Shown here: in pieces, positions 54,831 to 63,551 of the stretch
Layout of the letters: each line of letters starts with the position of its first letter
Position numbering within the stretch: the first letter of the stretch is position 1
Source: Skermanella rosea
GTDB taxonomy: Bacteria > Pseudomonadota > Alphaproteobacteria > Azospirillales > Azospirillaceae
Direction of reading: 5' to 3'
NCBI RefSeq assembly: GCF_016806835.2
Contig: NZ_CP086111.1
Coordinates: 241,501-305,500 of the forward strand
Length of the DNA stretch: 64,000 nucleotides
Translations under genes and position numbers: made by a program
The notes under the pieces: generated by a model
What the model was told of the DNA's origin: nothing
The model's input: only the letters and a program-made list of their open reading frames with translations
The model's database searches: none

Positions 54831-57326
54831 ATGAGCACCTCAACCGCTTCCATTCCCGCCTCCACGCTTCCCGGCACCTGCCTCCATTGCGGCCAGGAGG
54901 TCCCCGGCCGGGGCGCCGGCTTCTGCTGCTCCGGCTGCGAGGCCGCCTGGGCGCTGATCCGCGACCTGGGGCTGGACACCTACTACGCCCGCCGCTCCAT
55001 CGATCCCGACGCGCGGCCGATCCGCCCGGACGAGGACGCGGCCCCCGCCGACTTCTCGGCCCATGTCTCGGCCGGCGCCGACGGGCGGGCCAGCCTGCAC
55101 CTGATGGTGGACGGCCTGCAATGCGCCGCCTGCGTCTGGCTGATCGAGACCGTGCTGCGCCGGCAGCCCGGCGTCACCCATGCCCGGCTCAACATGACGA
55201 CCCGCCGGCTGACCGTGACCTGGGACCCGGCCGTGACCGACGCCGCCGGGGTCGCCGGCGCCGTGGTCCGCCTGGGCTACCGGCTGGTGCCGTTCGATCC
55301 GGCGAAGCTGGAGGCGGCCGAGGCGGTGAAGGAACGCGAGCTGCTGCGGGCGCTCGGCGTCTCCGGCTTCGCCGCCGCCAACGTGATGCTGCTGTCGGTC
55401 GCGATCTGGGCCGGGCACTCCCAGGGGATGGGGCCGGCGACCCGCGACCTGATGCACTGGGTCTCGGCCCTGATCGCGATGCCGGCGATCCTCTACGCCG
55501 CCCGTCCGTTCGCCCGCTCCGCGTGGGCGGCGCTGTCGGCCCGGCGCACCAACATGGACGTGCCGATCTCCATCGGCGTGACGCTCGCGACCGGGATGAG
55601 CCTGGCCGAGACGATCCGCGGCGCGGAGCACGCCTATTTCGACAGCGCCGTGACGCTGCTGTTCTTCCTGCTGATCGGGCGCTATCTGGACCTGCGGGCG
55701 CGGGGTCGGGCGCGGTCCGCGGCCGAGCACCTGCTGGCGCTGGGCTCCTCGGCGGTCACCGTGATCGACGCCGACGGGCGCGGGCGCGTCGTCCGGCCGG
55801 GCGAGGTCGCCGCCGGCATGACCGTGCTGGTCGCCGCCGGGGAGCGCATCCCCGTGGACGGCCGGGTCTCCGACGGCGTCTCGGACATCGATACCGGCCT
55901 GATCACCGGGGAGAGCGTGCCGGGCGCCGCCAGGCCGGGCGACCAGGTGTTCGCCGGGACCCTCAACCTGACCGCGCCGCTCCGGCTGACCGTCACCGCC
56001 GTGGGCGAAGGTACCCTGCTGGCCGAGATCGTGCGGATGATGGAGGTCGCGGAGCAGGGCAGGGCGCGCTACGTGGCCCTGGCCGACCGGGTGTCGCGGG
56101 GCTATGCGCCGGTGGTCCACCTGACCGCCCTGGCGACCTTCCTCGGCTGGGTGGTCCTGGCCGGCAGCCCGTGGCAGCCGGCCCTGCTCAACGCCATCGC
56201 TGTGCTGATCATCACCTGCCCCTGCGCGCTGGCGCTGGCGGTGCCGGTGGTCCAGGTGATCGCCAGCGGCCGGCTGATGCGCCAGGGCATCCTGCTGAAG
56301 TCGGCCACGGCGCTGGAGCGGCTGACCGGAGTCGATACCGTCGTGTTCGACAAGACCGGCACCCTGACCGAGGGGCGGCCCGAACTCCAGGGTGCCGACG
56401 GGGCGGAGGACGCGGACCTGCGGCTTGCCGCCGCGATCGCCGGGGCCAGCCGCCACCCCCTGGCGCGGGCCCTGTGCCGTGCCGTGCCGGGGGTTCCGGT
56501 GGCGTCCGGCGTGCGCGAGGTGCCCGGCGCCGGCCTCGGCCTCGATGGGCCGGGAGGGGAGATCCGGCTGGGCAGCCGCCGCTTCACCGGCGCGGAAGAG
56601 GGGGGCGAGTCGGCCGGCGAGTCGGCCGGTCCGGAGCTGTGGCTGGCCCGGCCGGGCCGCCGCCCCGTCCGCTTCGCCTTCAGCGATGCCCTGCGGCCCG
56701 ACGCCGTCGAGGTGGTTGCGGCCCTGCGGGCCGGCGGCAAGCGGGTTCTGCTGCTGTCCGGCGACCGGCGTCCCGCCGTGGCGGCCTGCGCCGCCCGCCT
56801 GGGCATCGAGGAGTGGCGGGCCGCCCAGGCGCCGGCCGACAAGGCCGCCTGCCTGGAGGAGCTGGCCCGGTCCGGGGCCACCGTGCTGATGGTCGGCGAC
56901 GGCCTCAACGACGCGCCGGCGCTCGCCGCGGCCCATGTCTCCATGTCGCCGGCCACCGCGGCGGACGTCAGCCAGACGGCGGCCGACGTGGTGTTCCAGG
57001 GTATCAGGCTGAGACCGATCCTGGAGGCGCTGGACGTCGCGCGGCGGTCGGACCGGCTGGTCCGCCAGAACTTCGCCCTGACCTTCCTCTATAACTTATT
57101 GACTATACCGGTGGCGGTGGCCGGGCTGGTGACTCCGCTGATCGCGGCGCTCGCCATGTCCTCGTCGTCGCTGATCGTCATCCTCAACGCCCTGCGCCTC
57201 GCCCGGCGCCGGGCCAACCCGGGACAGTCCCATGGACGTGCTCATATATCTCATTCCCTTGGCGGTGGGCCTGGGACTCCTGGGCCTTCTGGGCTTCCTG
57301 TGGTGCCTGAGGTCCGGCCAGTTTGA
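54831..57326 (+). CDS. ccoI: Copper-transporting P1B ATPase CcoI (FixI)
   Basis: Delivers copper for the cbb3 oxidase CuB centre. 831 residues: an N-terminal Cys-rich region (CLHCGQEV, CCSGCEAAW), a heavy-metal domain with GLQCAACVWL, eight predicted helices, the metal motif TCPCALALAVP, phosphorylation site DKTGTLTEG and hinge GDGLNDAPALAAA. The last 31 residues overlap ccoS in another frame and are low-complexity. Central gene of the assembly cluster. Confidence 0.94.
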   Translation: MSTSTASIPASTLPGTCLHCGQEVPGRGAGFCCSGCEAAWALIRDLGLDTYYARRSIDPDARPIRPDEDAAPADFSAHVSAGADGRASLHLMVDGLQCAACVWLIETVLRRQPGVTHARLNMTTRRLTVTWDPAVTDAAGVAGAVVRLGYRLVPFDPAKLEAAEAVKERELLRALGVSGFAAANVMLLSVAIWAGHSQGMGPATRDLMHWVSALIAMPAILYAARPFARSAWAALSARRTNMDVPISIGVTLATGMSLAETIRGAEHAYFDSAVTLLFFLLIGRYLDLRARGRARSAAEHLLALGSSAVTVIDADGRGRVVRPGEVAAGMTVLVAAGERIPVDGRVSDGVSDIDTGLITGESVPGAARPGDQVFAGTLNLTAPLRLTVTAVGEGTLLAEIVRMMEVAEQGRARYVALADRVSRGYAPVVHLTALATFLGWVVLAGSPWQPALLNAIAVLIITCPCALALAVPVVQVIASGRLMRQGILLKSATALERLTGVDTVVFDKTGTLTEGRPELQGADGAEDADLRLAAAIAGASRHPLARALCRAVPGVPVASGVREVPGAGLGLDGPGGEIRLGSRRFTGAEEGGESAGESAGPELWLARPGRRPVRFAFSDALRPDAVEVVAALRAGGKRVLLLSGDRRPAVAACAARLGIEEWRAAQAPADKAACLEELARSGATVLMVGDGLNDAPALAAAHVSMSPATAADVSQTAADVVFQGIRLRPILEALDVARRSDRLVRQNFALTFLYNLLTIPVAVAGLVTPLIAALAMSSSSLIVILNALRLARRRANPGQSHGRAHISHSLGGGPGTPGPSGLPVVPEVRPV

Positions 57327-57408
57327 CGACCTCGACGGAGCCGCCAACCGCATCCTGTTCGACGATGACGAGCGTGTAACACCGCAGCCGCGAAACGACC
57401 AAAAATAA
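57232..57408 (+). CDS. ccoS: Cbb3 oxidase maturation protein CcoS (FixS)
   Basis: 58 residues: MDVLIYLIPLAVGLGLLGLL forms one membrane helix, followed by the signature FLWCLRSGQFDDLDG and an acidic end. Needed for inserting haem and copper into CcoN. It overlaps the 3' end of ccoI by 95 bases in a different frame. Because of its size it is easily missed. Confidence 0.92.
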   Translation: MDVLIYLIPLAVGLGLLGLLGFLWCLRSGQFDDLDGAANRILFDDDERVTPQPRNDQK

Positions 57409-57509
57409 CCCCTATGAGAATGGTTATATTCAGGCGTGTTGCAATCTTGCGAAAAATCCAATTTATAACCAGAATGGAATAGGGAAGCAGAAGGGCGGGG
57501 GGAATTGCG

Positions 57510-58247
57510 ATGCCTCCATTCGACATGGGCAGGGTGCGCGACAAGGGTGCTGCCGCGGAGACGACGCCCTGCGGCGCGTGTCCGGTTCGGACGCTGACGG
57601 TCTGTGCGGCGTTGGAGGCGGACGAGGTGCGTCGGCTCGCCGATATCGTCCAGATGCAGCGCATGGAGGGCAACCAGACGATCTTCGCCGAAGGCGATCA
57701 GGCGGACGCCCTGTTCAACGTGACCTCCGGCACGGTCAAGCTCTACAAGCTGCTGCCCGACGGACGCCGCCAGATCACGGGGTTCCTGGTCACCGGCGAC
57801 TTCCTCGGGCTCGCCATGAACGAGAGCTACGCCTATTCGGCGGAAACGGTGACGCCCACGTCGCTCTGCAGGTTCCCGCGCCGCAAGATGGAGGCGCTGC
57901 TGGACGAGTTCCCCAAGATGCAGCGGCGCCTGTTCTCCATGGCGTCCAACGAGCTGGCGGCGGCGCAGGACCAGATGCTGCTGCTCGGCCGCAAGACCGC
58001 GCGGGAGAAGATCTGTTCGTTCCTGCTGATGCTGTCGCAGCGCCAGTCGCGCCGGGGCCACAAGGAGAACCCGGTCTACGTCCCGATGAGCCGGGCCGAC
58101 ATCGCCGACTATCTCGGCCTCACGACCGAGACCGTCAGCCGGACCTTCACCCAGCTCAAGACCTCCCAGGCGATCTCGCTCCAGGAGGGCAACCGGATCC
58201 AGATCGCCGACATGGACGGCATCTACGACATGGCCGAAGGCGTCTGA
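57510..58247 (+). CDS. fnrN: FNR-type oxygen-responsive regulator FnrN
   Basis: 245-residue CRP/FNR activator. Cys21, Cys24 and Cys32 (PCGACPVRTLTVC) plus Cys120 can hold a 4Fe-4S oxygen sensor; the cyclic-nucleotide-like domain and the helix-turn-helix MSRADIADYLGLTTETVSRTF follow. The ETVSR recognition residues predict binding to TTGAT-N4-ATCAA. It closes the ccoGHIS cluster and probably controls it under low oxygen. Upstream, TGGTTATA and TATAACCA form an 8-bp inverted repeat; no clear anaerobox is seen there. Confidence 0.92.
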   Translation: MPPFDMGRVRDKGAAAETTPCGACPVRTLTVCAALEADEVRRLADIVQMQRMEGNQTIFAEGDQADALFNVTSGTVKLYKLLPDGRRQITGFLVTGDFLGLAMNESYAYSAETVTPTSLCRFPRRKMEALLDEFPKMQRRLFSMASNELAAAQDQMLLLGRKTAREKICSFLLMLSQRQSRRGHKENPVYVPMSRADIADYLGLTTETVSRTFTQLKTSQAISLQEGNRIQIADMDGIYDMAEGV

Positions 58248-61268: not shown

Positions 61269-61661
61269 TCAGCCCGTGAAGCTCCGGATGATCTCCAGGA
61301 GCCGTTCGACCTCGATCGGTTTCTGCATCACCACCAGCCTGTCGCCGGCGGGAATGGCCTCCTCCTCGTTCGGCGACATGTAGCCGGTCATCACGACGAT
61401 CGGGAGGAGGTCGTCGGTCGATCGCAGGTTGCCGATCAGCTCGTGCCCGCCGCCGCGCGGCATCCGCATGTCGGTCACCACGATGTCGGCCGGGTCCTGC
61501 CGGTGGATCGCCAGCGCCTCCCTGCCGTCGCAGGCGGTGGTGACGCGGTAGCCCTTGCGGGTCAGGAACCGCTCGAGCGCCATGGCAGCGATCGCCTCGT
61601 CGTCCGCGACCAGGACGTGGCTCCTGGGCTGCTCTTGCGTCACGGCATCGGTGTCAGGCAT
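61269..61661 (-). CDS. CheY-like response regulator
   Basis: 130-residue single receiver domain with VADDEAIAAMALERFL, phosphoacceptor Asp in DIVVTDMRMPRGGG, then VVMTGY and the lysine in VMQKPIEVERL. No output domain. It overlaps the end of the ethylene-receptor-like kinase gene by 8 bases, so it is the likely phosphorelay partner. ATG 61661 has GAGAA upstream; ATG 61673 is possible. Confidence 0.9.
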   Translation of the reverse strand: MPDTDAVTQEQPRSHVLVADDEAIAAMALERFLTRKGYRVTTACDGREALAIHRQDPADIVVTDMRMPRGGGHELIGNLRSTDDLLPIVVMTGYMSPNEEEAIPAGDRLVVMQKPIEVERLLEIIRSFTG

Positions 61662-63387
61662 TCGGGTTCTCATGTGATGGTCTGCTGCGGACCGGCAGCA
61701 ATATCGTGAAGCGGGCTCCCTGGTCCAGGTTTTCGGCGGATATCCGCCCGCCCATCGCGCCGATCAGGCTGGCACAGATCGACAGGCCGAGGCCGACCCC
61801 CTTGGTCGCCTCCTTGGTGGTGACGAACGGGTCGAAGATCCGGTCCGCCATTCCCGGCGGAAGGCCGGTTCCGTCGTCGCTGATCGTGATGCGGATCTGG
61901 TGCGGGCCTTGCTCCTCGGACAGGCCGACCTCGATGCGCCCGCCCTCGAAGGCAGGGTCGGCGGTCCGGCGGGCGGCGATGGCGTCGTGGGCGTTGCTCA
62001 GCAGGTTGATCACGACCTGCTCCAGGCGGCCGGGCCGGCCGGCCACGGCGGGCGCGGCCGGCGGCGCGTCCAGGGCCAGGGCCATGCCCTCGGTCGCGAA
62101 ATGGCGTTCGAGCAGGCCGACGGCGCGCCGGACCGGCTGGACCGGGTCGAACGGCACGACCTCCGGGCCGTCGCGCCGGCTGAAGGAGCGCATCTGGTCG
62201 ACGATCTCGCCCATGCGGGCCGCCTGGGTCGAGATCAGCTCCATCCCTTGGCGGAGATAGGCCGCGTCGGCCTCCACGCCCTCCTCCTCCATCAGGAGCC
62301 GGTTGTCGTCGGCGGTGATCCTGATGATGTTCAGCGGCTGGCTCATCTCGTGCGCGATGCCGGCGGCCAGGGTGCCCAGCGTGGCCAGCTTGGAGGTCTG
62401 GGCCAGCTCCTCCTGGAGCGTGCGGTACTCGGTCATGTCGCGCGACGTGCCGAGCAGCTTCGTCGGACGGCCTTCGGCGTCGAGCACGGGAGCCAGGTTG
62501 GTCTGCCAGATGCGCGTGCCGTCCCGGAGATCCAGCGTCTCCTCGTACTGGATCGGCTGCCTTGCCTCGCAGCAGGCGCGGTAGCGCTCGACCAGATGGT
62601 CGGCCACGGCAGGCGGGAAAATCTCGTGCGGCGTCCGGCCGGCCACCTCGGTCGAGACCAGGCCGGTCTGGCGCTCGTGGCTGGGGTTGAGCGCTTCGAA
62701 CCGGAACTCGCCCGGGCCATCCACGCGGACGACGAACAGGCCCTCGGCCAGATGGTGGAAGATGCTGGAATAGTGCAGTTCGCTGGCGCGCAGCCGGCGG
62801 TTGGCCTCCGACAGCTCGGCGGTGCGTTCGGCGACCCGGATCTCCAGCGTCTCGTTGGCCCGCTGAAGCGCCGCGTTGGCCGCCTCCAGCTCGGCGGTGC
62901 GATCGGCGACCCGGCGCTCCAGCGCCCCGTTCACGAGGCGGACCTCCGCCTCCGCGCGCTGCCGCTCCCGGATCTGCTGTTCGAGCCTGAAATTGGCGTC
63001 GCGGAGCTGGGCCGGGCTGGGCAGGGCGAGCGCGTGGGGGATCAGGGGCCAGAGCATGACCGCGGTCACGACCGAGATCGCGGCGGTGAAGGCCTTGACC
63101 GCGCCCTGCGCTACGTAGTCCGGGTTCCACAACGTCCAGGCGCCGAAGAAGTGGGTTATCCCGCAGGCCAGGATGAAGCCGCAGAACATCAGGAAAATCC
63201 ACTTGTAGGCGAGGTCCTCGCGCCGCCATACGAAATAGATCAGGCCGATCGGGATGGAGCAGTAGGCGAGGCCGATCAGAATGTCGGACAGCAGGTGCGT
63301 CCAGATCAGCTCCGGTCGCCAGGTCAAGCAAAGGCCGTGGGGCAGGAAGTCGCCGGGCTCGCCGAGGGCGCGAAAGAAGGTTTCCAT
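61654..63387 (-). CDS. Ethylene-receptor-like histidine kinase
   Basis: 577-residue membrane sensor. The N-terminus has three helices (about 30-54, 63-83, 92-120) that align with the plant ETR1 sensor at a constant +10 offset: Asp35, Tyr42, Ile45, Pro46, Ile72, Cys75 and His79 correspond to Asp25, Tyr32, Ile35, Pro36, Ile62, Cys65 and His69. Cys and His bind copper(I) in ETR1. A coiled coil with repeated RVADRTAELEAAN motifs, a PAS domain, the kinase motif GIAHEMSQPLNIIR and an HATPase domain (NLLSNAHDAI, GVGLGLSI) follow. Co-transcribed with a receiver protein. Ethylene response is known for Azospirillum and Synechocystis homologues. Confidence 0.85.
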   Translation of the reverse strand: METFFRALGEPGDFLPHGLCLTWRPELIWTHLLSDILIGLAYCSIPIGLIYFVWRREDLAYKWIFLMFCGFILACGITHFFGAWTLWNPDYVAQGAVKAFTAAISVVTAVMLWPLIPHALALPSPAQLRDANFRLEQQIRERQRAEAEVRLVNGALERRVADRTAELEAANAALQRANETLEIRVAERTAELSEANRRLRASELHYSSIFHHLAEGLFVVRVDGPGEFRFEALNPSHERQTGLVSTEVAGRTPHEIFPPAVADHLVERYRACCEARQPIQYEETLDLRDGTRIWQTNLAPVLDAEGRPTKLLGTSRDMTEYRTLQEELAQTSKLATLGTLAAGIAHEMSQPLNIIRITADDNRLLMEEEGVEADAAYLRQGMELISTQAARMGEIVDQMRSFSRRDGPEVVPFDPVQPVRRAVGLLERHFATEGMALALDAPPAAPAVAGRPGRLEQVVINLLSNAHDAIAARRTADPAFEGGRIEVGLSEEQGPHQIRITISDDGTGLPPGMADRIFDPFVTTKEATKGVGLGLSICASLIGAMGGRISAENLDQGARFTILLPVRSRPSHENPNA

Positions 63388-63551
63388 GCAGTGTCCGGTT
63401 TAATATCGCAGTATGCAGCGCACCACGGTTACCAAAAGCCAACCTCTCGCTCGTTCGGGGAACCCAAAACAAGGTTAATAATTGTAAGCCATAGGCACGC
63501 GCCTTGTCTCGCCTTATCGTACCGAAGGTTCTGTCCAATCGTGCGCGGCGG

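Follow-up and report, generated by a model that had tools for sequence, protein, structure and literature searches.

The overlapping sensor kinase and response regulator genes at the end of this 64,000-nucleotide stretch of Skermanella rosea DNA (the window) raise the question of whether a soil bacterium outside Azospirillum carries a complete ethylene receptor system, and which residues such a receptor may need besides those defined in plants. The evidence is taken here from the gene pair outward, to its known relatives, its spread and a conserved motif at its N-terminus.

Gene pair and binding-site residues

The kinase gene lies on the reverse strand (window 61654..63387; ORF list) and encodes an ethylene-receptor-type sensor histidine kinase of 577 aa with Pfam ETR1_N, PAS, HisKA and HATPase_c domains. 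The ETR1_N ethylene-binding-type membrane domain occupies residues 26–122 (63022..63312, reverse strand). A profile search of the N-terminus against ethylene-receptor domains, the check proposed by the first-pass annotation, covered the ETR1_N profile end to end (positions 1–97) with 132.4 bits against a cut-off of 27 (E 7e-39). This kinase is the only ETR1_N match in the 7.76 Mb genome, and none of 14 control genomes gives a match to the profile. An AlphaFold2 model, built on a 107-row alignment with a mean pLDDT of 90.4, predicts helices at residues 25–55, 62–87 and 91–112, the three long helices of the ETR1_N type; a short helix (17–20) precedes them at lower pLDDT (block means of 72 and 73 for residues 1–20).

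The remaining kinase domains, all on the same strand, are a PAS domain (residues ~205–322; 62422..62775), a HisKA dimerisation/phosphoacceptor domain (residues 337–407; 62167..62379) with His346 in AGIAHEMSQP as the expected phosphoacceptor, and HATPase_c (residues 452–567; 61687..62034), in which the N, G1, F and G2 boxes are recognised by eye. The second gene (61269..61673, reverse strand; ORF list) encodes a 134-aa regulator whose sole Pfam domain is Response_reg (78 bits); it has no output domain. Its motifs ADDE, TDMRMP, MTGY and QKPIE are intact, with Asp68 the expected phosphorylation site. The two-component hallmarks are present on both sides: His346 and the four boxes in the kinase, the receiver Asp/Thr/Lys in the regulator. 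The two frames share 20 nt, so that the earlier description of a kinase overlapping a single-domain regulator gene is borne out.

The same annotation claimed that all seven residues essential for ethylene binding in Arabidopsis ETR1 are present, and they are found as stated. The aligned pairs (window/ETR1) are D35/D25, Y42/Y32, I45/I35, P46/P36, I72/I62, C75/C65 and H79/H69, and the stretch from Cys75 to His79 (63151..63165, reverse strand) begins and ends with the residues that match C65 and H69 of the ETR1 copper site. Over the N-terminus, 39 of 112 aligned positions are identical to ETR1. The numbering of the Arabidopsis ETR1 sequence used in this alignment fits the residues named in PMC11819568. 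The constant offset of ten that had been claimed holds for the seven residues but not beyond them: K98 aligns with ETR1 K91 at an offset of seven, as is likewise stated for AzoEtr1 of Azospirillum (PMC11819568). All seven residues are kept in 76 of 81 aligned rows, or 74 of 79 without repeats, since the window locus itself (L061) is one of the 81 and the A. brasilense Sp7 locus appears twice among them (L060, L085).

Relationship to known ethylene receptors

The closest characterised system is that of Azospirillum brasilense Sp7. By direct comparison, the kinase is 48.0% identical over 99% of its length to a protein on Sp7 plasmid p1, and the regulator is 52.1% identical over 117 aa to its Sp7 counterpart; the seven best matches of the kinase among named plasmid records are all from Azospirillum. 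As described in the passages of PMC11819568 drawn on here, AzoEtr1 has 525 aa, with three helices, PAS, kinase and the residues D35, C75, H79 and K98, and its gene slightly overlaps that of a 135-aa regulator without an output domain. Saturable 14C-ethylene binding is reported for its residues 1–130 expressed in yeast and for cells; ethylene, or loss of AzoEtr1, alters biofilm, root colonisation and metabolism, and Azospirillum responds to ethylene down to ppb levels (PMC11819568). The first-pass annotation alluded to an ethylene-binding Azospirillum homologue but said nothing of the identical gene arrangement published there (PMC11819568).

Judged by identity, architecture and gene pairing, the window pair is the Skermanella counterpart of AzoEtr1/AzoRR-etr1. 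Both kinases have the ETR1_N-PAS-HisKA-HATPase architecture, D35, C75, H79 and K98 stand at identical residue numbers, and in both a receiver-only regulator gene overlaps downstream. Together with an ETR1-type match far beyond chance, this upholds the ethylene-receptor-like reading. The systems differ in the length of the kinase (525 aa versus 577 aa) and in setting: AzoEtr1 is on a megaplasmid, whereas the Skermanella pair is on a 6.1 Mb contig, presumably the chromosome, and the adjoining genes are different (PMC11819568). They also differ upstream. A putative RpoN (sigma-54) site is mentioned for AzoEtr1 (PMC11819568), whereas the Skermanella upstream regions have no conserved sigma-54-like site. 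The sigma-54-like pattern had no match in six upstream regions (five Skermanella, one Azospirillum), and a sigma-54 promoter ahead of the Skermanella kinase was rejected, as only unspecific GG-N10-GC matches occur, at about -46 in two of the five Skermanella regions and elsewhere in three. Separately, a block upstream of the kinase, GGCTTACAATTATTAACCTTG (window 63470-63490), is shared, with no more than one change, by three of the five Skermanella upstream regions.

SynEtr1 of Synechocystis sp. PCC 6803, compared by description, is likewise a bacterial sensor kinase of the ETR1 type and has a partner regulator, but it is also a light sensor and signals to slr1213, an activator of the small RNA csiR1 (PMC11819568). 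Plant receptors are more distant. Arabidopsis ETR1 shares all seven binding residues and the lysine (Lys91/Lys98), but it carries a GAF domain and a receiver domain of its own (PMC6586836), and plant receptors mostly signal without kinase activity (PMC11819568).

As a close cousin of the Azospirillum receptor, which is already proven, the pair is in itself an ordinary find. It makes Skermanella a second soil genus for a proven bacterial ethylene receptor system, with the pair at one conserved place in five genomes, and another organism in which the target of the single-domain regulator can be sought. A literature search, with most subscription papers outside its coverage, found no publication joining "ethylene receptor" and Skermanella.

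Distribution and gene neighbourhood

ETR1-type domains in many proteobacteria have been published before (PMC7700396). With the window's genome counted throughout, matches to ETR1_N come from 5 of 5 Skermanella genomes, from 62 of 82 in the family and, among sampled genomes, from 28 of 385 in the class and 29 of 398 in the phylum; within the family, Azospirillum is the genus with most matches. Every one of the five Skermanella genomes has the kinase–regulator pair. The kinase is followed by a regulator frame that lies on the same strand and overlaps it at 5 of 6 Skermanella loci, the odd one out being a second copy in one genome, at 40 of 41 examined Azospirillum-genus loci (a count that leaves out the short contig L013) and at 48 of 63 family loci. 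Such a frame is found at none of the 17 further loci examined in the class; at two of them a receiver-like frame lies a short way downstream and does not overlap.

Gene order around the pair is the same in all five Skermanella genomes: CcoI-like copper ATPase, Fnr-type regulator, a methyltransferase-like gene (named by eye), ComF-like gene, glutaredoxin 3, carbon-nitrogen hydrolase, response regulator and kinase. The copper P-type ATPase and Fnr-type regulator lie at window 54831-58247 on the forward strand, and in all five genomes the pair is about 3–5 kb from them.

Proposed mechanism and alternatives

The preferred reading, to which we give a probability of about 0.88, is that the window pair is the Skermanella version of the AzoEtr1/AzoRR-etr1 ethylene two-component system and acts as follows. 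By analogy with Azospirillum, we infer that the kinase lets Skermanella rosea sense ethylene, of plant or microbial origin, and relays the signal by way of the overlapping regulator; the binding of copper and of ethylene, phosphotransfer and the direction of signalling are placed in this bacterium on the same footing. The membrane sensor would be dimeric, by analogy with ETR1, and its three-helix bundle would hold Cu(I) through Cys75 and His79, aided by Asp35 and Lys98. Ethylene would bind the Cu(I), and the linker and PAS domain would carry the resulting change to the kinase, which would autophosphorylate at His346 and pass the phosphate to Asp68 of the overlapping regulator. Ethylene probably lowers kinase output, by analogy with proposals for AzoEtr1 and SynEtr1 (PMC11819568). 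As the regulator has no output domain, it would act by protein–protein contact.

That same lack of an output domain gives some room to an alternative in which most signalling runs from the receptor to a different regulator or phosphorelay, leaving the overlapping receiver as a phosphate sink; the pathway behind AzoEtr1 is also called unknown in the Discussion of PMC11819568. Against this stands the overlapping gene order, kept at nearly all Skermanella and Azospirillum-genus loci, and we regard the sink as unlikely, if the most serious of the competing explanations. In a second alternative, fold and copper would be retained but the physiological ligand would be a different small pi-acceptor or a redox cue, such as carbon monoxide, oxygen or copper itself, and ethylene would bind only incidentally. 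The copper ATPase and Fnr-type regulator close by in all five Skermanella genomes suggest low-oxygen respiration and would fit such a cue. A profile search found no ACC deaminase in the genome, a weak pointer in the same direction, as the search covered one ethylene-metabolism family; the model gives sub-cut-off matches in 6 of 14 control genomes. However, the Azospirillum neighbours are different, and ethylene binding and ppb-level responses are reported there (PMC11819568), which makes this explanation quite improbable. Chance resemblance, or an unrelated three-helix sensor, is ruled out by the ETR1_N match (E 7e-39, far above the cut-off, single in the genome and absent from the controls) together with all seven residues, and the failure of Foldseek to return a PDB chain at E<=0.001 carries little weight, since the best 50 of its 97 matches include no ETR1 membrane-domain structure.

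A conserved N-terminal motif and its co-loss with Cys75

Ahead of the first ETR1_N profile position, residues 16–25 of the kinase read PHGLCLTWRP (63313..63342, reverse strand), an instance of a PHGxCLxWxP motif whose His17 and Cys20 are nearly invariant in bacteria. Given three helices and a cytoplasmic kinase, the motif would be periplasmic. Its conservation is not a search artefact, because members were found with a Pfam profile that does not contain it; the exception is 20 genomes picked through a pattern scan that included HGxC.

From 322 loci, one without a match, 270 distinct rows were obtained (window included), and 261 remained after removal of nine that seemed frameshifted or were too short ahead of the core. 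Among the 242 rows with a core of at least 60 bits, H17 is kept in 219, C20 in 234, C75 in 231, H79 in 233 and D35 in 232. The losses of H17 and C75 coincide. H17 is missing from all 11 well-aligned rows without C75, versus 12 of the 231 with it (Fisher 4e-13, the rows not being independent), whereas 9 of those 11 retain H79 and likewise 9 retain D35. When 27 conserved columns were tested for co-loss with C75, H17 ranked first, followed by T108 (2e-6) and C20 (4e-6). Across all 261 rows, H17 is lost in 24 of 25 rows without C75 versus 16 of 236 with it, the lone exception being the very diverged L325 (14.6 bits). An earlier 221-row set, which predates the removal of rows and the addition of the 20 pattern-scan genomes, gave 28/28 versus 14/193, and some of its rows are empty at position 17. 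Microcoleus vaginatus HSN003 (L397) is the clearest example, with PQGHCYLW and FIISSGTTH: H17 and C75 are changed, and the other 12 of 14 inspected positions are intact.

Relatedness of the rows was taken into account with trees. In a FastTree tree built without columns 17 and 75, seven C75 losses are counted, all in rows without H17, against nine H17 losses. A thinned 170-row tree yields six independent pairs on well-supported branches that differ in C75; H17 changes likewise in 4.9 of them on average and never the opposite way. For comparison, H79 changes the same way in 0.4 and the other way in 1.0, D35 in 1.3 and C20 in 1.6. The sign test for H17 with C75 has a median p of 0.0625, and p <0.05 is out of reach because there are only six pairs. 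This strictest tree test of the His17–Cys75 link is no more than suggestive.

Some rows run counter to a simple reading, namely the 12 well-aligned ones that keep C75 without H17. Seven rows have lost H79 and kept C75; five of these, all with Arg, keep H17, and two are without it. The H79-to-Arg group retaining H17 and C75 consists of L162, L163, L301, L308 and L309. In L271 and L302-L307, D35, Y42, I45, P46, I72, C75 and H79 are all kept while H17, W23 and K98 are lost, and an xIxxC-like stretch stands where PHGxC is expected.

The motif and the co-loss, both drawn from comparison of relatives, appear to be new here; a prior report of His17 is possible. The literature search, again with most subscription papers outside its coverage, found no paper pairing ethylene with PHGHC or PHGxC, and among the matches listed for a conserved histidine and copper ligand none bears on the motif. 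The motif also goes unmentioned in the available text of PMC12586476, PMC13012798, PMC5285503 and PMC7700396, figure alignments lying outside that scope.

Possible roles of His17

His17 may belong to the copper site as an additional component, or may help to hold or load copper. Plant ETR1 presumably lacks the histidine of this motif. A fuller proposal, put forward tentatively and at somewhat less than even odds, is that His17 is an eighth determinant in bacteria, which either completes Cu(I) coordination jointly with Cys75 or delivers copper to it; in plants, without the histidine, the function would have been replaced, and relatives that lack H17 and C75 but keep D35, H79 and K98, such as M. 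vaginatus HSN003, would be copper-free and bind another ligand. General decay of receptors would also remove H17, but H79 and D35 should then disappear equally often. H17 could also be structural. The 11 well-aligned ETR1_N rows without Cys75, possibly copper-free receptors for another ligand, are L397, L059, L329, L385, L053, L270, L310, L313, L314, L328 and L054.

Where bacteria have PHGxC, Arabidopsis ETR1 has Cys4 and Cys6, which form dimer disulfides and stabilise binding after solubilisation, although the double mutant is still functional in the plant (PMC2799528). Because these cysteines lie near the same place, C20 may contribute to the dimer. Should the His17 link be confirmed, it would be relevant to how the copper site of ethylene receptors is completed. 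Single-residue tests are feasible, since the AzoEtr1 N-terminus has already been expressed in yeast and binds ethylene there (PMC11819568).

Other forms of the ETR1_N domain

The domain is also met outside complete kinases. At L134:6181-9076 (forward strand), ETR1_N forms a protein of its own, about 140 aa long (Pfam), whose gene overlaps one for what by eye resembles a hybrid sensor kinase; a receiver-like gene follows. This may be a split ethylene receptor in which a separate subunit carries the binding domain. Two further proteins of this stand-alone kind (Pfam) occur in L133 and L135. In Chroococcus sp. FPU101 (G1241:C1:166003-166295), fragments of ETR1_N, spread over overlapping frames and interrupted by stops, resemble a decayed receptor gene.
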